Part shown: piece after piece, positions 1 through 61,856 of the stretch
How positions within the stretch are numbered: position 1 is the first letter of the stretch
How the letters are laid out: each line of letters begins with the position of its first letter
NCBI GenBank assembly: GCA_036172665.1
Contig: CM069872.1
Span: 48,780,101 to 48,844,100, forward strand
Direction of reading: 5' to 3'
From: Prosopocoilus inquinatus
Taxonomy: Eukaryota > Arthropoda > Insecta > Coleoptera > Lucanidae
DNA length: 64,000 nucleotides
The notes under the pieces: model-generated
What the model saw: the letters and a program-made list of their open reading frames with translations, nothing else
Told to the model about the DNA's origin: nothing
The model's database searches: none
Translations under genes and position numbers: made by a program

Positions 1-383
1 TTGATAGACACTCAATTTACCAATAAGTTAACGTTATATTTGGTGAAGCGCCGTAGCTTTGAGGTTACAATATTCCAATTGAAGTGACATAATTGCCAGT
101 AATCTTCAGTATCCTTATTCGTTTATTTTCTAAAATCTTTATAAGAATTTCTTCTTCGGCAAATTTTATTTCGTTCATTTCAGGTTCATTTTTCTTAAGT
201 ATTTTGAATAGCTGTTCGTTTTCGTATGGATTAAAAAAAAAATAATAATGGTTCACTCCTCATTTGACTCAAACAAAAACAAAGCATTGTCAGCCTTCCT
301 TGCTTGAATCGTCATCCTGCATGATTAATTAATTACACATACAGATTCTTATCTTCGAACAACAACGCTAATTATAATTGCAG
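1..383. other. upstream flank / intron before the first visible Rho exon
   Basis: AT-rich sequence with no supported gene. The Rho gene at 384 enters through a splice acceptor (polypyrimidine-poor tract ending in CAG at 381-383), so this stretch is most likely the 3' end of an intron. The exon(s) carrying the start codon and the P-loop must lie left of the window. A 63-codon antisense frame here is low complexity and is not called. Confidence 0.5.
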
Positions 384-3300
384 ATGCGAATTGTATTCGG
401 TTTCGATCCCAATCGGAAACGATGACTGCACACTCATAATATCAGATACAGGAGGTCAAGAAAACTATGACAAGCTCAGGCCCCTATCCTACCGCAACGT
501 ACGTCGTCGTCAATATAAACATCGAAGGCCAATTATTAAAAAAAAACTGTTTTATTTTCCTCTTTTTAGACTGACATATTCATCATATGCTTCGCCGTCG
601 ATAACAGGGCCTCGTTTAAAAACATCAAGAAGAAATGGGTGCCGGAAATACGCAGTTACAAGCCGCATTCCATTATCATATTATTAGGTAAGTCACGATT
701 TCAAAATTGATTTAAAATATGCGTTTCTATTTCTTTTTTCTTTGGAGTTCTGCCTTTAGACCAAAACGTTCTGATTTTAATATAAAAAATATTTACTTTT
801 GCATTTTCTCTCTCTCTCTCTAAAATGTGTATTTTGTGAATTCAAAAGACGCTGTAAAATGGAATTTAAATATTTAAACAAATTTTAAATCATTTTAGTA
901 GTTTAGAGAACTCAGGCAAAAAAATCTTTTATACAACACAACCATTTAGGACTCGGCTCCTTCGTCGCCTCGCCCTTTAACACGATTCGTCCCTTAAAAC
1001 GTTATTTTGAATATTTTGATATACTGGGTGTCTCACGGCACTAGAATTTTTACTTTTTAATCGATTTACGTTAAGTTGAGAAAAGATAAATTAAGTAAGA
1101 AACGTAATTTTCTAACATACTACTGGCCGCCATAGCCCTACCGGTTTCGTCAGAATTGATAACAACTTTCTTATTTTAATTGGCTGTAAATAACTGTATA
1201 TTTTTAGATAATTTAAACCTATAGATGATTACGAGTCCGAATACGTATGATTTGGTAATTGTAAGTGATTGATTGGAATTATTTGATCGCATTAAATCGA
1301 AAATATACGATTTATAGTTTTCAAGATTGAACAAAGAAACCAAATACTAATCGCAAGTTAAAGCAGATGATAGCTAAAAAAAACAAAAGATGATCGATTT
1401 TGAGTCAAATCAATCAAGCCTTCAAAAAGAAATCGACTCTCAGAACTAAAGAAAACAAAGAAGCAAATCCAAAGGACGCGATTGAAACAAACGGCTTAAG
1501 AAAATAGAAAATTGAAAAACAAAAGAAAATCGGCCTATTTTAAGAAAGTACAACAGAATCAAATGAAACAAACTCTCAATAAAACCAGGCAAAAACTCAG
1601 AAGAGTCGCAAAACAAAGAAAATTCATTCCGAAAATCCTGAACATCAACAATTAAAGAAAATGACTAGGTTGACTAGCAGATGACGTCACTGAAAAACAA
1701 CAAAAGATGATCGAGTTTGTATCAAATCTTCCAAAGCACTCCAAACGACTCGTTTTTAAAAACAAAAGAGAAGCAAGGAACAAGCAGAATTCCACGAGCA
1801 CGACACGATCGAAACAAACGATTAGAAAAAAAAAACAATAAAAGAACAGAAAAAAGAACAAAAGAAGATCGACTTGATTCACGAAAACGTCCGCCTCAAG
1901 ATACGACAGAATCAACGGAAACAGACTCGCTATAAAACAAAGGAAAAGCTGAATAGAAGCAAGAACCAAGAAATCACCAATCGCAGCGAAAAGTGTCAAT
2001 TTTAAGAAAAAAGAAGGCGGAAAAATGTCTAGCAAAATGGTACAAAACAACTAGAAGAGGAGAAAAAAATGAGAGAAAAAACAGAGCCAACTGAAACATA
2101 ACCGGATAATAACGATCAAAGAGATAACAGTTTATTTTAGCTTCAGATTAAATTAAACGACGCGGGCGACGTGCTCAAGAAAAACAAAAGAATCTCGACT
2201 TGAATCATGAAAATTCTGCTCGACTCAGAATCAACTGAAACCGGTTTTCAATTAAATAAAGGAAAAATTCAATACGCAAATGCAAAAAAGAAAGTAAAAT
2301 ATTCGATCTCAAACATCTCGAACATCAACGGAAATTGAGAAAAAAGTAATACTAAGACTCTCGAAACAAAAGAGAACAAAGATAATCAATCGAAGCAAAC
2401 CTTAACAGACGTGATTGAAAGAAACGACCTTAAGAAAACAGATGCCTAGAAAAACAAAAGAAAATCGTGAAAATGCCTTCTTAGTGCTCAAAAAACAGAT
2501 GAGAATCAAAACAAACTGTAAATGAAACAAAAGAAAAACTCAAAATGTTCGAATTGCATTGGACCTTACTTCGATTTCGAGAGAAGTCGAGAATGGAGCT
2601 GTTTGGAATATCTTCACTAACATGAGAGATAGGAAGCAGCAAGATTCGAGGCAAACGACCGAAATGAGTGAAAAAATCCGAAAATAAAGAAAAAGAACAA
2701 GGCAAAAGAAAACCGAATCCGAAACCGAATCTTCGGTCGGATTCTACTTTCCAGATTAAACACAACAATATATTTCTTATCTTTTAAATTAGTATAAGGG
2801 TTCGAATTTTCTGGTTCTCATAAATAAAATAAATCAGGAACTAAAACGCAATATGATACAAAAGTGTAACGCAAAACAAAACACGTGCAAGGTTAGCCTT
2901 GAAGAATAGCGTCGTGTTAGAATTCTCGGAACTTTGCTGCGTCGCCGTGTAAACGAAAAACAAAGCAAAACCACACAAAACATCCAGAAAACGAAAAATG
3001 GGGGAAAAATATAGCCAACTAAAACATAACTGGATGATAACAATCGAAGAGATAACAATTTATTCTAGCTTCAGAAACTAAACGAGGCGAGCGACGTGCT
3101 TTCGAAAAAACAAAAGAATATCTACTTGAACCATGAGAATGCTTGACTCAAAATCAGCTGAAACCAGTTTTCAATGAAATAAAGAAAAAGTCAATACGCA
3201 GATGCAAAAAAGAAAGTAAAATATTCGATATCAAACATCTCTCGTACGTAGATAAAAATTAAAAAAAAATACTAAATAAAGATGGTGATGTCACTGAACA

Positions 3301-5770
3301 GAAACCATAGATGAGCGATTTTGAGTCAAATCAATAAAGCATTCCAAAAACAATCGACTCTCGAAACAAAAGAGAATAAAGAAAGCCAATCGAAGGACAC
3401 CTTAACGGACGCGATCGAAAGAGACGACTTTAAGAAAACAGACGCCTAGAAAAACAAAAGAAAATGCCTCCTCACTGCTCAAAAAATAGAAGAGAATCGA
3501 TCAAAACAAGCTGTAAATAAAATAAAAGAAAACAGAATCGATCGAAACAAACTCTAAACGAAACAAAAGGAAAACTCAAAACAATTGAACTGCATTGGAC
3601 TTTGCTGCAATCTACTTCGGTTTTGAGAAAAGTCGAGAATGGAGCTTCTTGGAATATAACTTGGCTCTTCACTAACATAAGAGATAGAACTAGCAAGATT
3701 CAATGCAAACGATTGAAACGAGTGAAAAGAAAATCCGAAAACAAAAAAAAAGAACAAACCAAAAGTAAACGCTTGACAAACTCGCAATAAAACAAGAAAA
3801 AACTCATTAGTAGCAAGGAGAAAACGTGAATCTGAAACAAATTGCAATCAGTTTTGAGAAAAAAAGACAAAATAAATAAAACGACTAAACAAATGAAATG
3901 CGTTCTCAAAAATCAGACGTAAATAAAAACAAAAAAAATTGAAATTGAAGCAAATTGGACAATGTCTGTCACCGTTCTGTTCGATTTCGAACAAAACAAA
4001 AAAAAAACACTTCGAGGAACTCGATTCGTACAACCAACTGATTAAGGGACGCCAAATGATGATAATAATAATAAATAAAACGATGAAACAAATGAAATGC
4101 ACTCTCAAAAATCAGACGTAAATAAAGGCAAAGAAAAACTGAGACTGAAGCAAATTTTATAGTCATTAGCAGGGAAAAGAATTCGGGACACTTGTTTCGC
4201 GAACAATACGAAAATTTAGTACTCGGACCGTATTAGCCCCGCCCACAATAATCTCTGATGAAATGAGAACGCACTCCTTCCCCTCAGACTTAATAATAAT
4301 TCAAGGTGATGAGAGCAAATCAGCGTTAAAAGTATCCAACACTAGGCGGCCTGAATTCTTTTCCCTGGTCATTAGAAAACGTTCGATGTCGAACAAAACA
4401 AAAAAAAAACTTTCCGAGAAACTCGACTGGTACAGCTGATTAGGAGACGCCAAATGATAATCGATCATACAAATAAAATGCACTCTCAAAAATCAGACGT
4501 AAATAAAAGCAAAAAAAATTGAGATTGAAGCAAATTGGATAATGTCAGCAAAAGAACGTTCGATTTCGAACAAACCAAAACAAATACTTCAAGAAACTCG
4601 ATTGGTACAATTGATTAGGGGTCGTCAAATGATAATCGGTACAACTAAAATGCACTCTCAAAAGTCAGACGTAAATGAGAGCAAAAAAATTGAGATGGAA
4701 GCGAATTGGATAATGTCATCAAAAAAACGTTCGACTTCGAACAAGTCAAAAAAGAAACACTCCGAGAAACTCGATTGGTACAACTGATTAGGGAACGCCA
4801 AAGGGCCTAATGACGTGATTTAAACGTCTTCTGAGACCTTGACCTTCCCTTGATGAACTACTGAATTGAGTTGCACGCTTGCTCGTTGTATTAGATGTGC
4901 TCTATTGGTTTTATCATCGAACCTTATGGTTAAATGTATCCTTATTCTATGTTTGATGGGGTACGACATTTTTACCTTCTGGGATTGCTCTCTCTGCATG
5001 ACGACTGTGCTTCGAACTTGATGGTATTAAACATCACATGGACTCACAATGATCCAAAGGTTCTAAATACCATATGATTTTTTAAATTTTAGATAAAGGT
5101 TAGCCATGAACAGCAAAGTGCATATAAATTTAGTCGTAGAGGACGACAGTATGGACAGGAAAAGAGGAAATGGCAAACCTACAATCAGAACTAAAGAAGT
5201 TATTGGAAATTCTACAGTAAATTTTTATTTATTGAGGTATTTCGCACTATACGTTTTGCTTTCCAGGCCCTCCCTTTATATAAAATTTAAAAAATCCTGC
5301 GGTTTATACTAATATATAGGGTGTTCCCTTTAAAATAAAAACTTGATATGATGTTTTATGACCGGTTAGTAGTATTATTGCTTCCAAATTTCATGTAAAT
5401 CGATTGAAAAATAAATATTTTAGAAGGGTTGAACGTGTAGCGTTGGACACCCGGTGTAAACTGTGTAAATTGAAGCAAATAGAAATAGGGTTGCATAATA
5501 TTTTGGCTTAAAACAAACGAATTAATTTCAGGGACTAAAATAGATTACCGAGAGAAACATCCGGATTGTATAACGACAGAGGAGGGTGAAGCTTTGCGCA
5601 AGCAAGTAAAAGCAGACATATACGTGGAATGCTCCTCAAAGCAGATGGTGAACGTAAGCCGAGTTTTTGCAGAGGCCATTCGGTTGTTCCTGAGGAACAA
5701 GAGGCGAAACAGGCGCTCGATTTTGCGCTACAAGAAGTTGTGCTGCTGGAAATGCCTGCTCAGCCTCTAA
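384..5770 (+). CDS. Rho-family small GTPase, 5'-partial, three visible exons
   Basis: A membrane-associated GTP switch of the Rho family, known for control of actin. Exons are 384-498, 570-687 and 5532-5770. Donors are GTACGT at 499 and GTAAGT at 688; acceptors are TTTTTAG and TTTCAG. Phases agree: intron 1 is phase 0, and intron 2 splits a Gly codon (G + GG). The visible product is about 156 residues. It shows YSVSIPIGNDD (end of the effector region), DTGGQENYDKLRPLSY (switch II, usually DTAGQ), TDIFIICFAVDNRASF, WVPEIR, LLGTKID (G4, usually TKLD), and ECSSKQ at the G5 position. The P-loop exon lies upstream of the window. The tail is basic and ends CCWKCLLSL with no CAAX box, so palmitoylation rather than prenylation is plausible (inference). 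The second intron (4.8 kb) is mostly satellite DNA. Divergence from textbook RhoA/Rac/Cdc42 suggests an atypical, insect-specific member such as a RhoL-, RhoU- or RhoV-like paralogue. Which one cannot be settled here. Confidence 0.87.
688..1369. other. intron sequence with a half MITE terminus
   Basis: Start of the second visible Rho intron. It is AT-rich and mostly unremarkable. At 1022-1036 it carries ATACTGGGTGTCTCA, the same terminus as the nested element at 39438-40031. No partner end was seen nearby, so this looks like a fragment. Confidence 0.4.
1370..3840. repeat. A-rich macrosatellite, period about 925 bp, degenerate
   Basis: The plus strand is rich in AAACAAAAGAAAA-type words. Matching landmarks recur about 925-930 bp apart: GGCGACGTGCTCAAG near 2165 matches GAGCGACGTGCTTTC near 3090, and the ACATAACCGGAT block near 2096 matches ACATAACTGGAT near 3025. 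Shorter internal copies start near 1385, 1707 and 3310 with GATGATCGA or GATGAGCGA words. Many antisense frames with Phe/Leu/Ser-rich products are by-products of the A-rich strand and are not genes. The array lies inside the Rho intron. A rearranged copy lies at 13219-14040. Confidence 0.75.
3880..4800. repeat. tandem array of about 172-200 bp units
   Basis: Units begin with AAATGC then CTCTCAAAAATCAGACG at about 3896, 4095, 4478 and 4650. Each continues through a TTGAAGCAAATTGGA block, a CGTTCGATTTCGAACAAA palindrome, and ACTCGATTGGTACAACTGAT. The third interval is long (383 bp) because a transposon sits at 4170-4367. No coding content is supported. Confidence 0.8.
4162..4375. mobile_element. 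hAT-type MITE, 198 bp, with 8-bp target duplication
   Basis: The element is 4170-4367. It begins CAGGGAAAAGAATTC and ends with the reverse complement GAATTCTTTTCCCTG. It is flanked by GTCATTAG at 4162-4169 and again at 4368-4375, a perfect 8-bp target-site duplication typical of hAT transposons. It has no coding capacity, so it is a non-autonomous MITE. It interrupts a tandem repeat unit, so it is younger than the array. Related copies are at 22136-22483 and 39330-40359. Confidence 0.85.
5310..5460. mobile_element. short MITE-like element with GGGTGTTC termini
   Basis: TAGGGTGTTCC near 5317 faces TTGGACACCCGGT near 5445 as imperfect inverted ends about 140 bp apart, in AT-rich intron DNA just before the last Rho exon. 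Similar ends occur at 21399, 51720-51890 and 57566. The target duplication is unclear. Confidence 0.4.
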
Positions 5771-8967: not shown

Positions 8968-9042
8968 AGATCGGAATCACATATTTTGACGTCATCAATA
9001 AGAGTTTGGGTTTGCGTAGAAAATAATTTACATTATTTTACA

Positions 9043-9440
9043 GATTAAACAGCGACATCCTACCATCGCTTTTGATCTCAAATTGCAGAAGGGATTCACT
9101 GCAATCAAAAACGATTTGCAACAATTTTTTTTTTAAACTTTCATTATGCTTTGACAGCAAGCATGGCCGCCTTGTATGGGACGACTTATTATATAGCAAA
9201 CTCGCTTCAATTTGTCAATCCTACTACAATGTCAGGTCAAAAAGCGATCGTAGGATGTCGCTGTTTAATCTGTGCATTACTATTACATCGCAATTGCGAT
9301 TAACCTTGGTCGAATCGTTTTGGTTTGCGGTGGAACTCTCGAGCTACACTTTTGCTGATGAAGCCCCAAATAGGGCTGAAACAGCTGTATAAAGGCTGCT
9401 CGAGGGATTCACTGCAATCAAAAACGATTTGCAACAAAAT
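9043..9440 (+). mobile_element. retrozyme-like element: 313-bp monomer plus partial second copy
   Basis: The block GATTCACTGCAATCAAAAAC and its extension into ACGATTTGCAACAA occurs at about 9093 and again at 9406, about 313 bp apart. One full monomer is therefore followed by the start of another. The monomer ends in a hammerhead ribozyme (9336-9406). Arms of about 35 bp containing AAACAGCGACATC and its complement (9043-9077 and 9235-9270) can fold on each other. A small non-coding element in partial tandem with one hammerhead per unit is the layout described for metazoan retrozymes (family knowledge). Assignment here is inference. A homologous copy lies on the minus strand at 38194-38420, and a fragment at 48945-49012. 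Confidence 0.6.
9336..9406 (+). ncRNA. type I hammerhead ribozyme
   Basis: A self-cleaving RNA motif. The core is CTGATGA at 9355-9361, stem II AGCCC/GGGCT (9362-9366 and 9373-9377) with loop CAAATA, and GAA at 9378-9380. A 4-bp palindromic stem III is formed by ACAGCTGT (9381-9388), with A at 9389 as the residue before the scissile bond (NUH = GUA). Stem I has an inner helix CTTTTG/TAAAGG (9349-9354 and 9390-9395), an internal loop TACA/CT, and a perfect outer 7-bp helix CTCGAGC/GCTCGAG (9338-9344 and 9398-9404). All invariant core positions are present. The loopless short stem III implies that cleavage works best in a dimeric transcript, as in retrozymes. An internal loop in stem I facing loop II is the usual arrangement for tertiary contacts. 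Activity is untested. Confidence 0.85.
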
Positions 9441-10497
9441 TTTCTATAACATTTTTTTACGTAATCCTTTCCGGAACAATTCTTCTTCGTAAGGGGGCGG
9501 CACAGCACTGCCAACTCGCCAAATTTCAAATTCGAATTTTTATAGAAAAAATTGTATTTATTTTGTCGTTGAAAATCGTGTTATCCAGATTTGACGCTTT
9601 GACAGAATACCTCACAGCAGTTTTGAATTATTAATAAGTTTACTCTTTTCGTTTTTTTCTTTTTTATTTTTTAAAATTGTTATTTTTTCTTTCGTCAATG
9701 CCTACGTGTACGATCGTCATTTGTTTTTTTTTTCTCTTCTTTTTTCGTTTTCCATTTTTTGTTTCAATTTCCATTCCGATTACGTTTTTCCAAAATAAAA
9801 CGAAAATGTTCTTTTTTGTTTTTATTTCATTTGTCTTATATTTTCCAACTGAATAATTAAAAACTTTTTACAATCAGCAATCGTTGCTGTTGAGTTATGA
9901 TTGTAATTTATCTTTTTTTATGTGTTCTTTTTTTTTGTAAATTTCTAATTACTGTTGTGTCTTGAATTTGTAATGTTTTTTTTATGTAATAATTGTCCTT
10001 AGGAATTTTTATTTATTTTACTTTTTCTCGACTGCTAAAAAGTACTTCAAGTTTTTTCTTATGTTCAATTGTTTACCTTCTTCATAAATGAAATAAGTAT
10101 AAAACCTTTAGAAATTTTATTTTGTCTCGTGTTTGATTGCTTTTCTCGATTATCAAAAAAATCACTTTTTCCTTATTTCTGATTGTGTTCCTTTTTCTTT
10201 CATTTTCAATGTTTGCTATGAATGTTTCATTTTGAATGTTTGCTATTAGTTACCATCTTTAGAATTATTAAGTCGGCACTTTTTGAGTTTTATCGCGCAC
10301 GACTAAATGTAAAAAATGAAAAGAAATTTCATTTTCGTTCTTTTCGCTCTTCGAAAAATCCAAAATCGATTCTGAAGATAAAATAGTACATAGTACCATT
10401 TATTAATATAATTATATGGCTGGCAGCATGGCTGCGGAGCTGCAGCATGACGAGCGTAGCCCAATGTTGGCCTCAAAATATGTGATTCCGATCTCTA

Positions 10498-11150
10498 GTA
10501 ATAAACCATTTTCATACTATGAAAAAATCGTGTAATTTTTTTTGTTATTTCCCGATTTTTTTAATTCAGCTGTAAATAATTTAATTCATCGCGACCATTG
10601 TCATGTTTGTTACCATCCAAATTCAAATCATGCGCAGACGCTTTGCAACACTTTCTGCGCGGCAAATTTAAAATGAGTTTCACGAAATTTCTGAATGTAC
10701 GAAGTATTTCAATGAAATGAAATTTATGTGAAATATTTCACTTGAAATGTTTCGACTTTACAACATTACATATGACTATACCTCAACATCTTCGGAGTGA
10801 ATAAAATGCCATGATCTAAATGCGATTCACTAGTGCCATCTGGGGAATGAGTCCAGAAGCTCGGAGACGTGTGACAATTAACATTTTCTGTTGGCTGTAT
10901 TATATTATTTTCTCTTAATTGAAAATTTGTGCTGGGTGGTCTGTGTCAACTGTCCTGAGTTGGCAATACTTAATTTAAATACTTAATTTAAAGTGGCATA
11001 AATAATTTCCTAACGTGATTTATTCCACATCCGGTTGTTTTAATCGGTCAAAAGATGGTTATGTTTTAGTTGCGTCGTTGTTATAACAGCAAACACTAGT
11101 GACAGCACAACGTCTGACAGTTCGGCGGAAATAATAAATTACTGATTTAT
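10498..11150. other. intergenic AT-rich sequence, no gene seen
   Basis: Nothing supported as a gene. It includes a GTGCCATCTGG word near 10832 and a short direct duplication of ATACTTAATTTAA near 10968. Confidence 0.35.
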
Positions 11151-11386
11151 GTACAAAGTTTTCTTTAATCTTGAACCGGACAGAAATATGATGGGAACAC
11201 ACTCAACGTTTCGCTATAGATTTATAGCTTCGTCAGCTACAAATATAGCGAATATAGCGAAACGTTGAGTGTGTTCCGATCATATTTCTGTCCGTTCAAG
11301 TTTCGTCGGCTATAAATCTATAGCGAAACGTTGAGTGTGTTCCCATCATATTTCTGTCCGGTTCAAGATTAAAAAATACTTTGTAC
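11151..11386. mobile_element. foldback element with about 75-bp arms and hammerhead-like core words
   Basis: GTACAAAGT at 11151 opens an arm running through CTTGAACCGGACAGAAATAT and AACACACTCAACGTTTCGC. The right arm (to 11386) is its near-perfect reverse complement. Between the arms is a third partial copy. On the minus strand the left arm reads CTGACGA, then a GCTATA/TATAGC stem, then GAAAC, which matches hammerhead core spacing. Stem I does not pair convincingly, so a functional ribozyme is not claimed. A diverged copy is at 61497-61590. Confidence 0.65.
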
Positions 11387-12144
11387 TTACAAGAATCAAC
11401 TTCCTTTACTGATTTATGTTTGTAAACTATCAAACATAAAAATGTTCCAATGTAGGGATCTTTTAGTTGCCAACCCCGGACACTTAAGATTCACCACTTT
11501 GTATAATTGTTTTTGAATCAACAAATTGTCGCATCGTTACGATTTAAATTTGGCCATTGAGTTTCAGTTTGTGATTATTGCAACATTTCTGGCAAGGGGG
11601 ACAGATCTGGCCTGACAATCACACGTCAGTACACGCTTTAAATACCACAACTGTAAGACGATTTGTTCAATTAGTATATTTTTCAGTATCCGCTCGGCTA
11701 ACATAATTCTCCTTGACAATACATGAGTAAATGAGCAGTCGTAACAAACCCTGGCACTTCCTGCTACCAAGTCAGTCTACGTACAGCCTTAATTAATAAA
11801 AAGGTTTGATAAACTACAGTCAGGAAATTTGTTGGATTGTTTGTTTGTTTGTTGAGATGCTTGATTGATTTAATAAGGCAAGGTTATTTATAAAGGCGGT
11901 GAATGAATGAATTAATGAATTTATGAAAACGTCTTTAGATGTCAATGAATCGTTAAAATAAATTTCATTGTAAGTTGTAAAATGTTTATGTATGTAGGTG
12001 AGTGCTGCTGGCTGCGTTTGAACTGTAAACTTCTTGTAACATGAGCTGGATCATAACGTATCAAGTCGATTTAACCCCGATAACATCGTCAATAAGTTAA
12101 GATGAAAACATTGCCCCCTTGGAATCGATATGAAAAGTGCTTAC
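11387..12144. other. presumed MCT intron after coding exon 2
   Basis: AT-rich sequence downstream (on the minus strand) of the second transporter exon. No third exon could be identified. A 68-codon antisense frame at 11564-11770 has no transporter features. Confidence 0.4.
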
Positions 12145-15100
12145 CTGCGACGTGAACCGGAAGGGTCTTAAACTTCCCCGCCGCCGGAAACACGAGCTGC
12201 GAGCATGAGAGCTGCAAGCCGTTGTTAAGAACGTGAACTAACACAGAACAAACAACCACGACCCACCCCCAGCCGCCCTCCGGGTAGTAATGTCTCCGGA
12301 GCGTGGTCACTTTTCTTGCGTCCAACGGGATATCCGGTAGCAGGCAATCCGTGTGCTCGTTGCAGGCGGAGACACACTTCGTTTTGCATCCGTAGGTCGA
12401 GGTGGTGGTTGTGGTGGTTCTGTCACCACATCGATTTTGGCACCTTTCTTTGCCCGCTTCCGTGTACACTAAATCCCAGTTGTCCACTTTGATACTGGGC
12501 CGACGACATATGTTCCTTGTGTCTGCTTCGTCTGAGTTTTCTTCAATTTTTGCCAACGCCAGGACGTGGAACTTCTCACATGATGATTTTGCACAGTCGT
12601 CTTGAGGAGCTCGGTTTGGATTATTTTCAAGAACCAGTTTACCTAGAAACAAAAATAATATCTAACTTAACGTTAAAAGCAAAACAGGTTAAAAAAATCA
12701 CTATCATCAATTTCACCATTCACCAGGACTTGTCGGAAGAAGCTTTCGCCGTGGCATCGGCTAGGGTGAGAAAGGAAAGGAAGCTAAATGAACCTGAGCC
12801 CAAAAGTCAGTCTGACTTCAATTGCGAAATTACGAAAGAAATAAATAATTTTCTTTCCTGTTTAAATAAATAAATTGTAACGTCAGTCGGACAAGGCCAG
12901 CATCGTGAAAACAGGGTAGAGAAGCACATATCACGGAACAGAAAAGCTATAACAAGAGGATTAACTCCGCCAAATCCTTTTAATTGTTTCTCTGCCTTAT
13001 TTTCACTATGATAGACTAATCCAACTAAAGTGACCTTCCAGTAAAGTTCAACCGAAGATTCGGTTTGGGTTTAGACCAGTTTTGGCCATAAATACGTGGT
13101 TCAGCCAAAATTTTAATGTCGGCCAAAAGAGACAGCCGAACCCTCGATTGTGACAACTGGAGGTTCGGCTCTCTTTTTTGACCGAAACCGAAACTTGAAC
13201 CACGCTTTGTGACCAAAACCATGAAAATGCTTGACTCAAAATCAGTGAAATCAGTTTTCAATGAAATAAAGAAAAAAACTCAATACGCAGATGCAAAAAA
13301 GAAAGTAAAATATTCGATATCAAACATCTCTCGTACGTAGATGAAAATTAAAAAAAAATACTAAATAAAGATGGTGATGTCACTGAACAGAAACAATAGA
13401 TGAGCGATTTTGAGTCAAATCAATAAAGCATTCCAAAAAAAAATCGACACTCGAAACAAAAGAGAATAAAGAAAGTCAATCGAAGCACACCTTAACGGAC
13501 GCGATCGAAAAAGGCGAGTTTAAGAAAACAGACGCTTAGAAAAACAAAAGAAAATCGCGAAAATGCCTCCCCAGTGCTCAAAAAACAGAAGAGAATCGAT
13601 CAAAATGAGCTGTAAATAAAACAAAAGAAAAACTCAAAATGTTCGAATTGCGTTGGACCTTACTTCGATTTCGAGAGAAGTCGAGAATGGATCTGTTTGG
13701 AATATCTTCACTAACATGAGAGATAGGAAGCAGCAAGATTCGAGGCAAACGACCGAAACGAGTGAAAAAATCCGAAAATAAAGAAAAAGAACAAGGCAAA
13801 AGAAAACGGCCGTAACTGAAACCGAATTCTACTTTCCAGATTAAACATAACAATATATTTCTTATCTTTTAAATTAGTATAAGGGTTCGAATTTTCTGGT
13901 TCTCATAAATAAAATAAATCAGGAACTAAAACGCAATATGATACAAAAGTGTAACGCAAAACAAAACACGTGCAAGGTTAGCCTTGAAGAATAGCGTCGT
14001 GTTAGAATTCTCGGAACTTTGCTGCGTCGCCGCGTAAACAGAAAAAGCAAACAATGCAAGTTCGGACCTACAGGCTTACGTCTACAAGGTAATCATCGTC
14101 CAATCGGTGAAAACTTGCGATTGCGATGAATTAATTGTAAACGGGCATACGGACGATTAGGTGAGCCTTCGCACCCACCTGAAGAGGCAAGTCTGCGAGC
14201 TAGTACGATAGATTTATTTGTTCAACTTATTCACTTATCTCCGAGCCTTCAAACCTTTAGTTAGGCGCGAAGGCATACCTGATCATGTGTATGCCCATTT
14301 AAATGTGTTCCACCATTTGACTTGATAGGGGAGGGCTGATAAAAATGTTGCGACGCTCGAGAAAAGGGGAAAAGACGATCTAGATTTCTTGATATCGTTG
14401 ATTGATAGCGCGTTTCTTTGTCCTCGTCGAGAATTTTAATTTTTTTAACATTTTCCTTTCCTTCTTTTTTTTGTTTTCGCGATTGTAGAAAATTCCTCAC
14501 GGTTATTACGAATAAAGAAAAGCTATCACTTAACACTTGAGTACTAATTAATTGGGGAAGGGACGATTCGCCGTCGCCGACTCGCCGTCACCGATGATTC
14601 ACCGTCGCCTATGCGTCGTAGAACCAATTCGCCGTCGACCCAATTTATCATCCGCCCAATTCGCCGTCGCGTGTTACTGCTTTATTTAGCTTGATGAACT
14701 TTAAAACACTTTCTGACTATTTCAGATATCTACTACGAATTGAATGAAAATAACTATAATTTCAGTACGTTTCAAGTAAATTAAAATGAACTGCAGTATT
14801 ATTTTTCTGTGTCAAAATAAAATAAATTCCTAATTACAGTACGGTCATCGTAAGACACAAAATTGCGAATAAATTGCTGCACATAATCATAATTATAATT
14901 TTTTTTTAATAGAAACCCCATTTTTTATCATTTTAAATGACTAGCTTTCATGAATCAATATCTCGAAAACAGTCGACGTTTGATGTGTAGTGATTTTCAT
15001 TTATATAAAAATGAATATAATTTTTAGCAGAACATAAAAAAAACACCCTGTGAAATAAGAAATACTTCCTGGAAGAGTGACAATTTTTATCTATTTCTTT

Positions 15101-24385: not shown

Positions 24386-24623
24386 TACTATCGAAAGCAA
24401 AAAAATAGTAGTCAAAAACAGTTTCCTGTAATTATTCTTTCTCAAAATGGTATCGTTTAAGGATGACTTTACAAATAACATTAAAAAAAATTTGAACATT
24501 TCAGATTTAACAACCTTAAGACTTCGGTAAAATTTATTAGTTCGTCTTTAATCAGTACCATTTTGAGAGAGAATAATTACAGGAACTGTTTTTTTTTTCT
24601 ACTATTTTTTCCTTTTGACTGTA
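24386..24623. mobile_element. mariner-like MITE, copy 2
   Basis: The left end is ATCGAAAGCAAAAAAATAGT and the right end TTTTGACTGTA. Subterminal arms CAGTTTCCTGTAATTATTCT and its partner AGAATAATTACAGGAACTG match copies 1 and 3. Its right half is included in the tandem duplication that follows. Confidence 0.75.
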
Positions 24624-25000
24624 TCTCTTTGACCTTCGAGTACGAGCGTCGTAATGGCGACTTCGAAGAAAGTGGAACCTTCACTGTATACTTCGGTAAA
24701 ATTTATTAATTCGACTTTAATCAGTACCATTTTGAGAAAGAATAATTGCAGGAAACTGCAACTGTATCTCTATGACCTTCGAGTAGAAGCGTCGTAATGG
24801 CGACTTCGAAGAAAGTGGAACCTTCACAGTATACTTCGGTAAAATTTATTAATTCCGCTTTAAGTAGTACCATTTTGAGAAAGAATAATTGCGAAACTGT
24901 TTTTTGTCCACTATTTCATGCTTTCAACTGTATCTCTATGACCTTCGAGTAGGAGCGTCGTTATGGCGACTTCGAAGAAAGTGGAACCTTCACAGTATAC
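24522..25000. repeat. three tandem copies (169, 143, 167 bp) fusing a MITE half to a possible coding start
   Basis: Copies start at CTTCGGTAAAATTTATTA at 24522, 24691 and 24834. Each runs from the right half of the mariner-like MITE through CGACTTCGAAGAAAGTGGAA to CACAGTATA. Copy 2 lacks about 25 bp. Each copy carries an ATG at the same place (24654, 24797, 24963). Only the third continues into unique sequence. Confidence 0.85.
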
Positions 25001-32389: not shown

Positions 32390-34390
32390 GTAGATCGATT
32401 TCTGAAGCTTGACAATATTTTCAAAATCACAAAGAACTTTGCAATGACGATTCTTCTTGGATTTTAAGTTGCAAGAAGGTTGCCAACCTTCAAAATCCAG
32501 AAGAACTTTGATTCACATAGTTCAATGATTCTTCTTGGTTTCTGAGTTGGAATTTGGCAAAAATGTTACCAACTTTCAAAATACAAGAAGAAGAACTTTG
32601 CAATGACGTATTTGATTCAGATTCTTCACCGATTTTTCTTGGTCAGATGATGCCAGGATCGGTGATAAAACGTCGGCGGAAGAAAGAAACCAAAAGGAAT
32701 CAATTAATAACGAAAATCAAAGTTGTAATTGCTAAGTTCCTTTGGATTTTAAAGATTGGCAGCATATTGATGAGTCGTCTTCTTCGTCATAGCTCCGGGG
32801 ATCAGTACAAAACGTCGGGATAAGAAAGAAGATTCTAACTCGAAGACCAAGAATCAATGAAACACGAGAATCAAAGATGTCATTAGTATTTTGAAGGTTA
32901 GCAACACCTTATAGAGATGTCTTCAGAGCTGCTTGGATCGGCGACGAAACGTCAGCAAAAGAAAGAAAATTCCAGCTTGGAAACTAAGAAGAATCAATAA
33001 ACAATTTTTTTTTATTTTGACTTCAGACCTGTTGATATCGGTGACAAAACGTCGGAAAAATAAAAAGATTCCAACTCTGAAACCAAGAAGAATCAAAGCT
33101 GTCATTGAAGAGTTCTTCTGGATTTTGAAGTATCCATGAACAGTAACCGTAGCCACCGTTGGCAACATCTTCTGAAGACGTCTTCGGAGCCTCTGGAGAA
33201 GATTCCAACTCGGAAACTAAGAAGAACCAGCTAAGCAATGAAAACCAAAAATGCACTGCGAAGTATTTTTTTTTTAATTTAGACGCTGGCAACATTTTGT
33301 TGAGACAGTCTTTAGAGCTGTTGGTGGCGGTGACAAAACGTCGGCGAAAGAAGAAGATTCCAAGTCGAAAACCAAGAAGAATCACAGTTGTCAGTGAAAC
33401 GTTCTTCTGGATTTTGAAGCAACTATGAACAATAACCGTGATCACAGCTGGAAACATCTTCTAGAGTCGTTTTCGGAGACTCTGAGGTCGGCCACAAAAC
33501 TTCGGCAAAAGAAAGAAGATTCCAGCTCGGAAATTAAGAAGAATTAACAATCAATGAGAACCAAAAATGCACTGCGAAGTATTTTTTTTTTTGAATTTCG
33601 AGGCTGGCAACATTTTGTTGAGACAGTCTTTAGAGCTGTTGGTGGCGGTGACAAAACGTCGGCGAAAGAAGAAGATTCCAAGTCGAAAACCAAGAAGAAT
33701 CACAGATGTCATTGAAACGTTCTTCTGGATTTTGAAGCAACTATGAACAATGACCGTGATCACTGCTGGCAACATCTTCTGGAGTCACTTTTGGAGCCTC
33801 TGAGGTCGGCGACAAAACTTCGGCAAAAGAAAGAAGATTCCAACTCGGAAACTAAGAAGAACCAGCTAAGCAGTGAGAACCAAAAATGCACTGCGAAGTA
33901 TTTTTTTTTTTTTTGAATTTCGAGGCTTGCAACATTTCGTTGAGACAGTCTTCAGAGCTGTTGGTGTCGGTGATAAAACGTCGGCGAAAGAAAACGATTC
34001 CAAGTCGAAAACCAAGAAGAATCACAGATGTCACTGAAACATTCTTCTGGATTTTGAAGCACCTACGAACAATGACCGTGATCACCGCTGGCAACATCTT
34101 CCGGAGTAGTTTTCGGAAACTCTGAGGTCGGCGACAAAACTTCGGTAAAAGAAAGAAGATTCCAGCTCCGAAACTAAGAAGAAGCAATGGAGAATGAGAA
34201 TCAGAAATGCACTGCAAAGTTCCTTTTTTGGATTTTGAAGGCTAGCGACGTTTTGTTGAGACGTCTTCAGAGCTGTTGGGTATCGTGACAAACCGTGGGC
34301 AAGAAAAAGAAGAAGATTCCAACTCGGAAACCAAGAAGAATCCAAAGATTTTTCTTGAAAAGTTCTCTTGGATTTTGAAGCATCTATGAA
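32390..34390. repeat. dimeric satellite, about 320-bp higher-order unit, with an orientation switch
   Basis: The monomer (about 160 bp) carries GACAAAACGTCGGCGAAAGA then GATTCCAAGTCGAAAACCAA then TTCTTCTGGATTTTGAAGC. Landmarks on the plus strand fall near 32660, 32806, 32943, 33045, 33330, 33495, 33648, 33812, 33970, 34131 and 34285. From 33330 on, alternate monomers match best (318-322 bp), giving a two-monomer higher-order repeat. Left of about 32620 the same words occur as reverse complements (AAAATCCAGAAGAACTTTG), so the array inverts. The many ORFs with RRRFVTATNSS-like products are frames of the satellite. Confidence 0.85.
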
Positions 34391-37300
34391 CAATGACCAT
34401 GACCACAATTTGAAACAAGGCAATTACGAGAGGCATTTCTTTAATTTTTGCTTTACTTCCATAACCTTAACTGTTTTAAAAGTACGTCTTCTGCCTTATG
34501 CCATTATTCGCAACTCTATCAGTTTCCATACGAACAGACATTTTGATTAGAATGTTGAAATTTTTTTGAATCACCTGTCTGTAGGGGATTAGTAGTTAAG
34601 CAATACTAAATCCTTTCAAGAAATATTGTAGCAATGAAAAACATAGCGAGTAGAAATTATATTGCGAGAAGTAATTGCAAATATCATATGAACAAACGGA
34701 GCCTTGCATAATGCAAGCGCGGAAGTTTTAGTGACGTGTGCAAGAACTAACCTTGGTTCTGCGAATCAAAACACAGCAAAGATTGCATCAGTTTGTGCAC
34801 GTCATTGGAAAGTTACACGTCATAATGTCGTTAAATATACTGAAGCACACATCGCAGACTAATGGTTGTTAGTGATCAAACCCCTAAATAAAAACCTCCC
34901 CTAGCGTATGCATGACAAAATCATGTAATATAATTTAATATTTAAAAGAAATATATCTATATTATACTTTGCTCTAACTATGGCCCCGTTCCAAAATTAC
35001 GGCAACAATCTCTTATTCTCATGTAAACAACTTACTGTATTTTTTTGCGATTGCGTTTTCTCAAGACTTGCTTCACCCATTGCTGTTTTTAATTTACCAA
35101 ATTTTATTGCTGTTGACTCCTCCTTTAATATGACTTATGAAGCTTCTGGTATCCTTGCTTTTGGATATTTCATTGGCCTACTTTTCTTGTCGAAGTTCCA
35201 TCCCCAAATTATTCTGCTCCTTATTAGACATTCTAGTTCAAACGTGATGCCAATGCCAATACTCACTCTACTGCAAACAAACTAAACTCAACGTTTTGTC
35301 TAGTGCTGGCCATACTCAGAATGTGGGCAAAAAGCCAGAGCTAAGTCCATTTTGGTTTGGAAATGAGCAGTTCTATTGGTTTCGAATTTATTACTAATTA
35401 AGGACATCAATTCATCTTCTCATTTACTTGATTTTCAAAGTACATATTTATGCGCCAGGTAGAGCTACTTCCAAATTGTGCTGCTTTTTACACCACTTAT
35501 TTATTTACATTTGCAAAGAGCACGACTATAAATTGTGTTTCCCGGAGTCCAACCTGCGCAAGTATTTGGAATTCCCCAAATAATTCCGAAACTAATTAAC
35601 ACCGATTCAAGAGATTAAACGCCCAATTACGCCGGCACCCCCTTGCACCCCACCGTACCCCTCCCAAAACCCAAGGACTACAACGGCGCGGCGTCCTCAG
35701 AAATTACTCGCACATGAAATTCATATTCGCTAATTCGTTCCGCCCAATTCTGTCAAGCAGAAATGCAATTAATTCTCCAAGAATGTCCTGAGCTGCTTCG
35801 TCTGGATTTAATTGTGTCAGCGAATCCTCTTTGTTACTGTTATTAATTGAACGATTTTGAAAAAAGCAATAAGTCCTTTGGTTTAATTAAGAAGAAATCA
35901 GATTTCAGTAAAATCCCTCCTTATTAATGTCCAAAATGATGGTAGTCCTGGGGGACTGTCGAATCAAACATTTATAACCAACCATCGTTTCAAATTGAAT
36001 ATGTAAACAAAAATTTATTTGCTGTTTGACGTCAATTCAACGAGCGAGCGATGCAAAGTAAAAATCGAAATTCATGTTTGTTTCCACAGCCAGTCAGGAC
36101 TGCAATAATTGTTGGACTTCTGCTAGATTGTTCGAAATATGTAATTAGAATCCAAACTTAATGATGAGCTGCTCTGAGGGGGTTCCCCCTTAGCACCATT
36201 AAACCAACAACGGTCGGTTTCCAAAGCACACAGTTGAATTAATTAAAAGCGAAGTTCAGGCGGAAAGGTAATAAAATAGTCGGATTTATGCGAAAGTTCT
36301 TATAAGTTGCACCGTCAAAATTTAATGACGAACGTCGGCCATAAAACGGCAACAATGTCAGAGCTAATTTCCGTATGTTTTGCTGAGCTTTCGCGCTTTA
36401 ATGAACCGAACCTAATTTATTTTCGTGTCAACGAAGTTGATGGATTATTTATTATATCTTAACTCCGCCAGATTCTCTTCGAAATAAAGCTCCGCCCGAG
36501 GAAAAAAAAGGAACCCCGAAATTAGCCATTTTCACGCAAATTTCCTTGAAATCTCGTTTCCGGGGCGCACGACGCGACGCGACGCGACGACTTTGTTGCC
36601 AGACGTTAAGGGAATTTTAATTTTCACGGTGACTTCTCTGGCTCTTAGAGGTCCTTAAACATGCGAATATCTTTTATGGGCGGAAGTAAAACAACACAAT
36701 TACGGCAATATGCAATTAAATTGGGTGCTCGGCACGTTTTAATTAAGATAAACTTTGTAGCTTCGGATATAACGAGGGACGACCTCATTTTACTTCACTT
36801 TTAGGGAGTTAACATAAAGACTAATCAGAGAAAGAGAGAATCAAAACGACGCCGACGTTTCTTATGATGAGTTTTAATCCTTAGAGAAGAGAACGGAAGA
36901 ACTGTTTAAAAAAAAAATTGAAAAAAGTTGAAAGTTACTGAGCTAGAGCTGTCGCAGTTTGAGAAGGTCCTGTCACGTGACGAGTGCTGCGTAAGCAATT
37001 TAAGCAGATAAGCTCCGCCCACACCCAAGTAAGGGATATATTGCTTCTTGCAGCTAGATTATTGTATTATTACTGTTTATTTTAAGCATTACGAACGCTT
37101 TGGCACAGAAATAATGAGATTAAAAAAGAATTACAACTTGCATCAAGAAACACAAAGACATGAAATGAAGTCTGTCTGAAGACGCTTTTAAAATTTTCTG
37201 AAAGGCAGCAGATCTGCTGTGCGTCACGAATCACGTGAAATGAACTTTATTTTCCTAAGTTATGTTAAATTTTGGGGTGCCGCAAAAATCAAGTCTAGGA

Positions 37301-37879: not shown

Positions 37880-38193
37880 AGCTACGTTCTAAGCACCAAT
37901 TTGGAATGGATGACGTGTGTAGCGCCCTCTGTGGCGCCATAAATTCGTAATTTGCCGGAAGGAAATTCCAAAACAAATGAAAAACGTTAGGAACGTTCAA
38001 GAAAATGCCCTGAAAGTAACTTTTATACTTAAATAATTAAAACGAAAGAATTTATATCAAATTTACATTATGATTTACATGCACCTGTGGCGCCATCTGT
38101 TAGCCTCAGCCATAACACTGCACTGTTTATTTGCAAAAAAGAAACTGAAAAACTTAAGAGTGTTGTTGTTCTTAATACGATTTCTTTGATTGC

Positions 38194-38420
38194 AGCCTCT
38201 GTACAGCTGTTTCAGCACTATTTGGGACTTCTTCAGCAGAACCGTAGGTCCAGATTTCCACTACAAACCAAAAAAACGACTGGACCGTTATACTCGCAAA
38301 TGCGATGTAATATAATGAATAGCTAAAACAGCGACATCTTTCGATCGCTTTCTGACTTAACATTGTATAAGGATTGTTAGGTCAAAAAGCGATCGAAAGA
38401 CGTCGCTGTTTTAGCTATTT
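38194..38420 (-). mobile_element. retrozyme-like element, second copy
   Basis: On the minus strand this matches 9225-9400. It has a long hairpin (38319-38419, arms about 45 bp, including AAACAGCGACATCTTTCGAT), then TTACATCGCATTTGCG, GGTTTG and a hammerhead. After the hammerhead it resumes CTGCAATCAAAGAAATCG, lacking about 17 bp present in the first copy. That gap removes the 3' strand of the outer stem I helix. Confidence 0.6.
38196..38242 (-). ncRNA. hammerhead ribozyme, second copy, outer stem I lost
   Basis: Minus strand: CTGAAGA (38236-38230; the variable core position is A), then stem II AGTCC / GTGCT around AAATA with one mismatch. GAA follows, then the same palindrome ACAGCTGT (38210-38203) and A at 38202. 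The inner stem I is TTCTG/CAGAG. Compared with 9336-9406, the third inner pair is C-G instead of U-A, and the first is G-C instead of G-U, so pairing is kept while sequence changed. The outer stem I helix is gone through deletion, so this copy may cleave poorly. Confidence 0.65.
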
Positions 38421-39321
38421 AGAAAAAAACATTTGTGGCGCCATCTGTTACCGTTACTCGTAACTTTATTCTCCTTATTTGTGACAAATTTGTAAAAATT
38501 CAAAAAATTGTTACAATAAATAATTTCGAATAAATAAAATCGAGCAGAAATGATTAAAAGCAGTTTCGAAGATATTTCAAACATACATAAGTACCGCCAT
38601 CTGTTAACCTGTAATCGCAATTATTTTGCGTTTTCTAATTCCGATAGTTTCAAAACAGCCGAAAACAAATTTTAGAACGTTCAAGGACGATGTTATCAAA
38701 ACAATTTTGAATAAAAAAAAATATTTGTGGCGCCGTCTGTTACCATGAATCATAATTTTGTCATCTTTATCTGTGCGGCAACAATTTCAAGGCTGCTGAA
38801 AATCGCTGAAATTTTTTTTAGAAATAATGTTACAAAAAAATTCAAGGCTACTGAAAACCGCTGAAAAATTTTTAAAAATAATGTTACGGAAAATAATTTA
38901 GAATAAATTAAAGTTGAACGGAAATGGTTAAAAAAAGGTTTCAAACGTAAACAGCGCCATCCATTAATCTGTAGCCGCAATTAGTTTTGTTCCCTTTAAA
39001 TTCTGAAAGACAGTTTCAAAACTTTAAATTTCTTCATGTTGGAGAAATAGTTTAAGCGCGTTCCGCTCAGCGACAGTTTTCGGCAGCTTTTCTAACCTAA
39101 AATTTTGACAGCTCTTGTCGCTTTTTAGAAATAGCAAAAGAAATCCTGATTTATTTAGCATTTTAGCATTTAGCAGAGTAAACAGATGAAGGTTTCTTTT
39201 TTAGTTTTACTTACTAATTACTCTTAATAATAAATATTGTAATAATAAGAGGCGCCGGCCGGTAAGAATTTTGCAACCCGGCGACTTGATTTCTAACTAC
39301 GCCACTGTTTCTCTGCTGAGT

Positions 39322-51620: not shown

Positions 51621-53938
51621 AATTTTTGGTTGTGATGAAAGTCAGTTTTTACATGTATATCGATTTGACACTAGAATTTAATTTAGATTTCAAACATGTA
51701 TGAAAATACCAAGTGTTCCATTAAAAGAATAAAATAAAATTTCAGTTTATATCTCAGTTACGCGACGTTAATTTGTTTTTCTTTAAACGTCAGTAAAAAC
51801 TTTGAATTAGTATGTGGAATAACTTTGTAATAAACATTTCTTTCTAAATTCAAAAATTAAGAAGTTAAAAGGGGTGGAACTTCTCACGTAGTCACCCTGT
51901 ACACTTCATCAATACAGAATGGTCTTAGTAGTGGAAAATTTATTTGAAGTCGAGGAATTTCGGAATTAACGTAGAATTAACAGAATTTTAATGAAGGCAG
52001 GAAAAGCAAAGGAAGATTTTAAGAAATGGGGAAAATCCAAGGGCAATTTCAAATAATATTTGAAATAACATTCTAAGAATTGGGAAACTTGCTTTCTTTG
52101 TACGGATTCAAATTTTTAGACACTTATTGATTTATTAGACAGGTTTAATGTAACGTGAAGTAAACTTGATTGTTTTTAGTCGTATTTTCTTCGTCCTGAA
52201 ATTTGCATTAGAGTAGGTAGATCATTACATCGGCGAAAGAACGAGAGATATATCGACGCCAGCTGTGGCATACGAAAAGAACAGACTTCGCATTTACATA
52301 ATAAAATGCAAATAACTCGTGTGCAAGGTTTCCGCATCGGGCCCCTTCCGAGCTCATCAGGCAAATTTCATAAAAATAATCGCGATAAATCAGGGCGCAA
52401 AACAAATCCCGTCGTCCACTCGAATATACGCGGGTAATAAATAAGTGCTTTTTAGGTTATTTGCGCGGCAAAAAGATAAAATATGAGCTTCAGTTTATCC
52501 TCGGTGCTCCCTATTACCCCAGTTTAAAGAACGCCGGCCGCCGAGCTTGCTTGCTTGTCGTAGATCAGGATATCTTGGGGGAATATAAATGGTCCGTTTT
52601 ATTTCGCCGCGGCGACGTTTCGGCATCATACGTCGTCGTTCTCAGAGGTATCTCAGCGTGCTTCGATTAATTTCTCAGCGCGTGTTTCACTCGTAATTTA
52701 TAACCTCCGAGACAACAAATCGCAGTCATTAGATTCGCCGGATAAACAACGCGCTTCGATTTCAGAGACAACGTACGAAGGAAGAAGCTGAATTGCAGGA
52801 GGATCTTCTGCTTAACGAGCAATTAAGAAAAAGGAAAACAGAAGGATCACCCCCCTTCTTCACAATTGCAACGGCACCAAGTATCGATTTCGCCGGAATT
52901 ACCGCTTAAAACGATCAGAAATAATAAATTGCGGCGCTCATAAAAGTGGAAAGCGAAAGACATAATTTTCCTTTTTTTTTTTTATTAAAAAACGTGCCGT
53001 AACTAAGTGGAGATTTGATTCGTGCCAATGTTTGCCGGGATTCGGGCGAGATTAAGTTTTAAACAAGAGCCGCTTAAAATTTAATTTCACCGCAGCTTTA
53101 AAGCTTCTCCCTTTCAACGTCCTCATTGAAGGGCGTAATTTTCACGAGTTATTACGGCACTTACGAAATTGTTACGCTCTCAATATCGCCGAGCTGTATT
53201 TAATCTCGAGAATATTAATATTACGGAGATGTAAACGTGCTGAAACGGAAAAACACGCCGCCTCTCCTATTGCATTGAATACACATACCGGTTGTTGTTG
53301 CAAAATGAGAACATAGGCAATACAAGAGACAGGACGCGCGCGTAAAACATCGAGCAAGGTCTTTCAGTTTCTAAGATATCACATTGATTCAACAAGCGGT
53401 ATGTAATTTAATGAATGGAAGCGAAATTCCTCATTCCTCATTCCTCATTTCTCATTCCTCATCGTTTCCTAATCTGGCAAAGTTTTGATGAAACTCTAAG
53501 AACGATTTCATAAAGCAATAATTAACTATCGACTCCCCGATGAAATTGAAATCTCCGAGAGTTATTCCGGTGATCCCCCCCGTGTCCCTAGGCGACCGGC
53601 CGGGCCTAGCCGAACAATCAATCATAAATATTGGGCCCACAAACGCAGAACGAACGTAATTACTGCGTACTCGTTAGCGCCTTCACGAGGGCTCGACGCC
53701 TGGAATTGAGGTCGCCGAGATATCCCATAACGTAATTGAAATTCTGACATTCCAGGCCCGGCTGTGTATGTGCAATGATGATAAACTGTTGGCAACATAA
53801 TTAATCACGTCATGCGGAATTAAACCAGGTACCGACAACAGGAAGCGTTAAGGTGATAAGATTCGGGCAGGCTCGTCTTCTTCTTTTGATCAGGCGGTAC
53901 TTCTGCAACGCACTTTGAAAAATGGAATACCTCCATTA
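51621..53938. other. intergenic; GC-richer single-copy DNA 52.2-53.9 kb
   Basis: No gene recognised. The segment 52180-53880 is GC-richer than its surroundings and not repetitive, apart from a short CATTCCTCATTTCTCATTCC stutter near 53430-53460. It is a candidate for conserved regulatory sequence. Short open frames on both strands lack domains. Confidence 0.4.
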
Positions 53939-54247
53939 ATTTCACAATTGAACCTCTTTTTTAGGCAGAAACCTTGAAGACTATACAATTTTTTTTTTTG
54001 TAAAATACTTCGCATTCGTCCTCCTATTACATTGGTACCTCTTGGCTTCTAAAATCAAATCACCCGTGAATTTTCTACCGCCCTTGATTCTCTTGATTCA
54101 CAATTGAACCTCTTTTTTAGGCAGAAACCTTGAAGACTATACAATTTATTTTTCTTTTGTAAAATACTTCGCCTTCGTCCTTCCATTGCATTGGTACGTC
54201 TTGGCTTCTAAAATCAAATCACCCGTGAATTTTCTACCACCCTTGAT
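53939..54247. repeat. tandem duplication, about 156-bp period
   Basis: TTCACAATTGAACCTCTTTT at about 53941 and 54097 starts two copies. They share AGGCAGAAACCTTGAAGACT, GTAAAATACTTCGC and TCACCCGTGAATTTTCTACC. Divergence is only a few percent, so the duplication is recent. Confidence 0.9.
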
Positions 54248-61496: not shown

Positions 61497-61590
61497 GCAG
61501 ACTCTTGTCTTGACGAAGCTATCAATCGATAGTGAAACGTTAAGTGCTTTTCGAATCATAATTCTGTTCGGTTTAAGATTAAAAACTTTT
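61497..61590 (+). mobile_element. diverged fragment of the 11.15-kb foldback family
   Basis: TTGACGAAGCTATC, AATCGATAGTGAAACGTTAA and TTCTGTTCGGTTTAAGATTA match the arm at 11151-11225 on its minus strand. The hammerhead-like words TGACGA, stem and GAAAC are retained with changed but still paired stem bases, GCTAT/ATAGT. Confidence 0.5.
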
Positions 61591-61856
61591 TACTTAATTT
61601 TTTTTTTCATTCAAAATTCGGTTACCTTGCTTACCGCCTTCTGCCGGCTCTGTGGCAAAAAAACTAGGTTTTAGTTGGAAATAGAATTTCAAATGGAAAA
61701 AATGCCGGCAGTAAAAATGAAGAAAAGAAAACGGAAATAGTGATATAGGTTTGACAAAGTTAAGAAACAGCAGAAATGTTAAAATAAAAAGGAGTAAGAA
61801 GTGTAAAAGCCAACAAAAGTAAAGTAGCCAGAGGGGTAAGTAAAAAGAAAGTAATT

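Follow-up and report, generated by a model that had tools for sequence, protein, structure and literature searches.

The window, by which we mean the whole 64,000-nt stretch of Prosopocoilus inquinatus DNA analysed here, holds exon-like frames, tandem repeats and three copies of a repeat associated with a hammerhead ribozyme. The features outside that repeat family are as follows.

325-684 (+) and 5489-5767 (+): two exon-like frames of a Ras-family GTPase (PF00071), Rho-like by eye
12089-12661 (-): 190-aa frame with a PEGGWGWVVV motif and no Pfam match, which we take to resemble a monocarboxylate transporter exon
4376-4802: tandem repeat, period 171 bp
24618-24899: tandem repeat, period 143 bp
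33197-34407: tandem repeat, period 322 bp
53941-54247: tandem repeat, period 159 bp
11148-11389: inverted-repeat cluster with a CTGACGA...GAAACGTT string, of foldback or MITE-type appearance; related copy at 61511-61597

The ribozyme itself is composed of the following parts.

9338-9404 (+): type I hammerhead ribozyme, stems I, II and III plus core (sequence descriptor and Rfam)
9338-9344 / 9398-9404 (+): outer stem I, CTCGAGC / GCTCGAG, 7 Watson-Crick pairs
Between outer and inner stem I (+): internal loop, TACA/CT
9349-9354 / 9390-9395 (+): inner stem I, CTTTTG / TAAAGG, 6 pairs, 2 of them G-U
9355-9361 (+): hammerhead core CTGATGA
9362-9377 (+): stem II, AGCCC/GGGCT, with loop CAAATA
9378-9380 (+): hammerhead core GAA
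9381-9388 (+): palindromic stem III octamer ACAGCTGT, identical in 26 of 40 aligned copies, window copy counted
9389 (+): H17, an A
9389/9390 (+): predicted self-cleavage site, placed from the hammerhead core

This arrangement of a CUGANGA...GAA...UH core with three stems, stem I being the open one, identifies 9338-9404 as type I. The original prediction of a complete type I hammerhead is borne out part by part (stems, loop, core, octamer and H17), including a stem I of two helices separated by an internal loop, the outer one of seven perfect base pairs. A strict descriptor scan finds this one site in the 64,000-nt window, and the same descriptor matches 1 of 1000 Markov-simulated windows. Two other hammerhead-like matches were discarded: 11195-11236 (-) lies within an inverted repeat that has other copies and its stem I is unpaired by eye, and 52325-52360 (-) lacks proper stems by eye.

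The covariance score by which the original prediction proposed to be judged is less favourable to the window copy, which reaches 22.3 bits (E = 0.0032, cmscan of 251 nt) against a gathering score of 34 for RF00163 and is unlisted in whole-window Rfam scans, at gathering or at E up to 5. The prediction stands in its identification of a hammerhead of the retrozyme kind within an insect-like repeat, and for this copy falls short on its own threshold. A sibling copy in the same genome (L008) scores 38.7 bits (E = 3.2e-6), above the threshold, and the majority sequence of 40 aligned copies retains the hammerhead core. L008 is the only match at gathering among the 20 of 30 loci then fetched, in which four matches appear at E up to 1. 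Compared with the Rfam family (Hammerhead_1), the window copy agrees with the printed consensus in loop II (CAAAUA) and has the same core save the free position of CUGANGA, but its Rfam alignment opens a one-base gap where the cut falls. A covariance model built from the 40 sibling copies gives 92.5 bits at the window copy, itself one of the 40, and 58.9 at 38193-38247 (-), a copy outside those 40.

An 81-nt stretch around the hammerhead is more stable than 200 of 200 shuffles (z -4.64), although its minimum free energy (MFE) structure is not the hammerhead fold. In the secondary-structure model the window monomer has an MFE of -29.8 kcal/mol, against -19.6 kcal/mol for the hammerhead fold; the predicted active fold of sibling L023 lies about 9 kcal/mol above its MFE, and the Rfam consensus sequence likewise misfolds, by 5 kcal/mol. 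The preference of the window monomer for another fold agrees with the dimer idea of the original prediction, and the palindromic stem III is compatible with hammerheads that act as dimers, as described for amphibians in the available text of PMC7229834, and the RNA may circularise, in line with other members of the retrozyme class.

To place the motif in its repeat family, we searched the 649.6-Mb assembly (173 contigs) with 9036-9460 as query, which gave 6187 first-look candidates, with 40 scored and 30 loci fetched. These contain 25 complete units (L008 and L013 being near-duplicates) of 303-327 nt, with a 312-nt consensus of GC 0.41 and 81-93% identity to it. L022, L008, L028 and L030 have tandem runs in a single orientation, 1.4 to 2.4 units long, the longest (about 2.4) in L030. 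Unit length varies and is no constant multiple of three, and there is therefore no conserved reading frame; a 121-aa stop-to-stop frame spans 9027-9389 in the window. Tandem units with a type I hammerhead, low GC and no coding capacity are the marks of a metazoan non-LTR retrozyme, and the 312-nt unit has no reverse transcriptase plus GIY-YIG frame such as defines an autonomous Penelope-like element (PLE). The family is thus a non-autonomous, non-coding retrozyme of a known kind. It shares with the metazoan non-LTR retrozymes, as the available portions of PMC7229834 and PMC7761336 describe them, the type I hammerhead, tandem repeats of 150-450 bp, GC below 50%, no LTR, target-site duplications of more than 4 bp and a weak stem III; this assignment is by anatomy. 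The Dolichopoda pDo500 satellite (PMC2837043) is likewise an insect hammerhead repeat with compensatory changes and a proposed double-hammerhead form, but it is a satellite of about 500 bp and the text examined gives no insertion borders. Searches of a phage collection, of viral contigs and of prokaryote contigs yielded no match.

We then examined how far the ribozyme is conserved in an alignment of 40 copies, made from 42 full-length matches by removing three duplicate rows (two from L013, one from L027) and the disrupted row L018 and adding two partial matches extended to full length. All core positions tested are retained in 27 of the 40, the window copy included, and broken in 13. Pairing exceeds slid controls clearly and shuffles modestly. 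Standard pairs fill 89.8% of pair cells against at most 45.6% in slid versions, an excess that tends to arise anyway for a structure derived from the same sequences. Double-sided changes number 10, a value reached by 8 of 500 shuffles, against a shuffle mean of 4.0; the corresponding counts of shuffles are 11 for paired cells, 16 for the covariation score and 32 for pairs carrying a double-sided change. For further pair types there is no excess over shuffles in this alignment (246 of 500 as high). In the RNAalifold consensus stem II and inner stem I largely persist, but the core TG is paired with the octamer. Between the window copies at 9 kb and 38 kb, 7 of 47 positions differ, among them the core position that is free to vary; an inner stem I pair reads U-A in one copy, C-G in the other, and the 38 kb copy has two further pairs broken. 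The change rate between these two copies is not significantly lower in motif-bearing columns (p = 0.052).

These data bear on a rival reading, in which the ribozyme has lost its activity and the repeat survives as fossil DNA. The disfavoured monomer fold, the 13 broken cores and the 7-19% divergence from consensus point that way; against them stand the window copy, with every tested core position kept, and the double-sided changes at stem I pairs. We consider a dead motif unlikely, if not strongly so.

For the insertion structure, units are numbered from the first base after the ribozyme cut (u1), and borders were classed by script as A (u45-76) or B (u190-213). The copies in the window map as follows.

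9040-9092 (-): inverted retrozyme segment u196..u143, whose outer border at 9040 is a B border (unit mapping and inverted repeat)
9090-9453 (+): direct retrozyme segment of more than one unit, from u14 once round the 312-nt unit and beyond the cut to u64 (A border)
9094-9124 (+): A-border sequence, first copy (direct repeat D1)
9407-9437 (+): A-border sequence, second copy, just 5' of the 3' border
9030-9041 (+): putative left target-site duplication ACATTATTTTAC, score 9 (below 10), final bases overlapping the element border
9449-9460 (+): putative right target-site duplication ACATTTTTTTAC
38192-38419 (-): second, decayed composite copy, - u10..u141 and + u153..u197, RF00163 13.4 bits
48931-49014 (+): third copy, a minimal composite lacking the ribozyme, - u60..u24 and + u146..u198, with A and B borders

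Mapping of the inverted left end led us to abandon the idea that the 9 kb locus is a plain tandem dimer. Its two putative duplications, ACATTATTTTAC and ACATTTTTTTAC, match at 11 of 12 bases, giving a score of 9 against a threshold of 10. The 38 kb copy has an intact hammerhead core and a damaged region 3' of the cut, with one B border (+u197) and a damaged other end (u10). Matches to microRNA models at 38311-38426 are below gathering values and reflect the long hairpin of this head-to-head copy. A 17-base match (TAACAGATGGCGCCACA region) at 38086-38102 and 38434-38450 flanks the same copy, and a similar stretch recurs nearby.

Composites of this kind recur in the loci fetched: an inverted segment is joined to a direct one, and both outer borders are formed by sense 3' ends. 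The A border lies about 50-64 nt past the cut and the B border, in opposite orientation, about 195-208 nt past it. Over all sets, 21 of 33 head-to-head clusters are A/B, one is A/A, none is B/B and 11 have a border elsewhere; the counts exclude the duplicates L013 and L027, and loci were fetched best-first rather than at random. The first set of 21 clusters comprises 17 A/B and four in which at least one border falls outside both sites: those in L008, L026 and L028, and an L014 cluster that extends beyond the end of its locus. In the 17, 15 A borders fall within u54-64 and 15 B borders within u195-208. Its remaining clusters are single-orientation copies, mostly ending at A, and two small pieces. 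The second set (9 loci) gives four A/B, one A/A (L083) and four other, where L088 counts as a single "other" cluster though an A/B composite is readable inside it. The third set, from an A-border query with four new loci, gives three clusters and no A/B, two of its loci (L091 and L093) sharing a layout. Of the window copies, the one at 9 kb (L001, -u196, +u64) belongs to the 17 A/B clusters of the first set, and the one at 48.9 kb (-u60, +u198), also A/B, lies outside the 33.

Target-site duplications scoring at least 10 flank 12 of 22 A/B composites, which supplies for these the duplication of more than 4 bp seen in metazoan non-LTR retrozymes; the other 10, including the window copy, have none at this score. 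In the first set they occur in 8 of 18 (the 17 clusters and the 48.9 kb copy; one of the 8, in L003, sits in a simple AAT repeat) compared with 10 of 306 mismatched flank pairs, and in the second set at 4 of 4 A/B loci. Head-to-head arrangement, a tail at one end only and a short duplication together make up the Penelope-type insertion structure in these composites.

Nearly all A-ended segments run through the ribozyme cut (33 of 34, for example u258 round to u59 in L022; the exception is a 38-nt piece in L007). These 33 were therefore templated by a circle or an uncut multimer rather than by a cleaved monomer. Of the 34 segments, 22 start near the cut (5' end in u285-u312 or u1-u31), which is a hint only, as the query favoured such lengths. 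A and B are not unusually near each other when the circle is folded, with 68 of 312 positions as close. The paired A/B borders are the new element here, the retrozyme kind being already known; we found no report of such a border rule for retrozymes in the open-licence literature searched, and the main text of PMC7229834 uses neither "inverted" nor "head-to-head".

As a control for this structure we used a co-resident PLE, found by a genome search for GIY-YIG (PF01541) in which 150 places were scored out of 2232 candidates. One identical score is shared by 130 of those 150 matches, and on this sequence measure the family looks young. RVT_1 and GIY-YIG lie in one open frame in L050, and the organism-named relatives of the frame among the 120 matches listed are insects (Tribolium, Aromia, Molorchus, mosquitoes) and the springtail Allacma; judged by its domains and relatives, the element is a PLE. 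Together with the Ras-family exons of the window, these insect relatives accord with an arthropod host. Its loci (L031-L080) are mostly head-to-head insertions with one tailed end. Among the 150 places, neighbours within less than 10 kb are head-to-head in 47 cases, tail-to-tail in none and same-strand in one.

Read by eye, and with the cut set at the position that lets stem I pair, the PLE carries a minimal hammerhead, CTGAAGA...GAA followed by the palindrome ATACGTAT. At the 3' side its copies stop at either of two points: the A end lies about 46 nt beyond the inferred cut, and the B end, which has the tail, about 40 nt beyond A. In the first loci one A and one B end are present in 7 of 7, with shared flanks of 11-14 bp; this count sets aside L058 and L060 (the same places as L057 and L059) and also L042, whose two tailed ends are no borders because each continues into one and the same downstream sequence. 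That downstream sequence resembles the start of the next unit's ORF. A second sample of 20 further pairs from the 47 yielded 19 informative loci (one side of L079 has no recognisable hammerhead), all 19 of them A/B and all 19 with duplications of at least 10 bp, compared with 2 of 342 mismatched pairs. Overall, A/B pairing holds in 26 of 26 informative PLE loci. The retrozyme thus inserts like the PLE but less uniformly (21 of 33 against 26 of 26), a difference that age and decay could explain.

Several of these traits are familiar from PLEs with GIY-YIG, as far as the available text of PMC3846280 and PMC11167929 goes: head-to-head inverted copies (inverted pLTRs in PMC3846280), an optional tail at one inverted end, short target-site duplications (8-10 bp there), AT-rich targets and hammerheads. 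The anole PLE protein is described as cutting and extending both target strands, starting at two adjacent internal RNA sites that we liken to the A/B pair of the retrozyme, although the start site did not differ between strands (PMC11167929). The retrozyme departs from PLEs in encoding no reverse transcriptase or endonuclease and in a wider A-to-B spacing, of about 140-145 nt compared with about 40 nt for the resident PLE. The end regions of the two share no significant similarity (718 and 143 of 2000 shuffles as high), and a shared end sequence seen by eye, TCGAGG..TTTTC.CACT, was rejected as not significant against shuffles. It is the border logic and the duplications, not shared sequence, that suggest a link between retrozyme and PLE. 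Retrozyme copies are diverged and the PLE family looks young, so the resident PLE need not be the partner.

The motif, the repeat family, its tandem units, A/B borders in most composites, the duplications and the like pairing in the co-resident PLE lead us to read the repeat as a non-autonomous retrozyme inserted by Penelope-type machinery from circular or uncleaved multimeric RNA, to which we give a probability of about three in four. The steps of transcription, cleavage, circularisation and use of PLE proteins are ones that we infer. Tandem copies would be transcribed, and the hammerheads would cut the multimers, probably most readily when two of them dimerise via the palindromic stem III; the RNA would then be ligated into circles or would remain multimeric. 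A Penelope-type RT/GIY-YIG protein would nick both strands of an AT-rich target, and reverse transcription would be primed on both strands at two fixed places in the RNA, A on one and B on the other. The two cDNAs would join head-to-head, and the staggered nicks would yield a duplication of about 10-14 bp.

The composites might instead come from self-priming or template jumping on antisense RNA, without priming on both target strands, which is how the available text of PMC3846280 interprets rotifer Penelope head-to-head repeats with palindromic junctions. Self-priming on one template does not by itself predict two different fixed outer borders, however, and the action of the anole protein on both strands from two adjacent internal starts also speaks against it, even with no start difference between strands (PMC11167929). 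We hold this route to be about as unlikely as loss of ribozyme activity.

Less probable still is transport of the retrozyme by an ordinary LINE, in which the inverted pieces would be L1-style 5' inversions by twin priming. LINE insertions are also known with head-to-head inversions and duplications of such length, and the lack of significant similarity between retrozyme and PLE fits this route. Yet LINE inversions have one fixed 3' end, whereas the retrozyme, where both outer borders are fixed, uses two different sites (21 A/B, 1 A/A, 0 B/B), as does the PLE in its 26 informative loci; the A borders inspected have, by eye, no poly(A) tail. It is very improbable that the repeat is a pLTR piece from a Penelope element rather than a retrozyme in its own right: type I hammerheads do occur in PLE pLTRs (PMC7761336, available text) and the resident PLE has one, but that hammerhead differs in sequence, the repeat builds its own tandem of units of about 312 nt with varying length and no conserved frame, and matches to the unit (E no higher than 1) turn up in only 2 of 30 GIY-YIG loci, as a copy in L032 and as a partial match of 74% in L055.

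Under the preferred reading, insertion by Penelope-type machinery, the finding bears on a known gap: the available text of PMC7761336 describes metazoan retrozymes as without a conserved motif from which to deduce an autonomous partner element, and that of PMC7229834 names PLEs as a strong candidate, both having hammerheads, tandem copies and co-occurrence. The paired A/B borders add junction-level evidence for that candidate and make the partner question testable by reconstituted insertion with PLE protein and retrozyme RNA. We lean slightly towards a more general proposal, that animal retrozymes are parasites of Penelope machinery. In this view their RNA offers the same kind of A/B pair of start sites, one for either strand where an AT-rich target is cut with a stagger; a complete insertion would end in A on one side and in B on the other, and the retrozyme would retain the pair by structure rather than shared sequence. 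Among the GIY-YIG loci, a retrozyme copy at 2149-2456 of L032 lies next to a GIY-YIG fragment, and at 2838-2884 of L055 a 74% match to u6-u52 adjoins a PLE copy, possibly a second retrozyme family.
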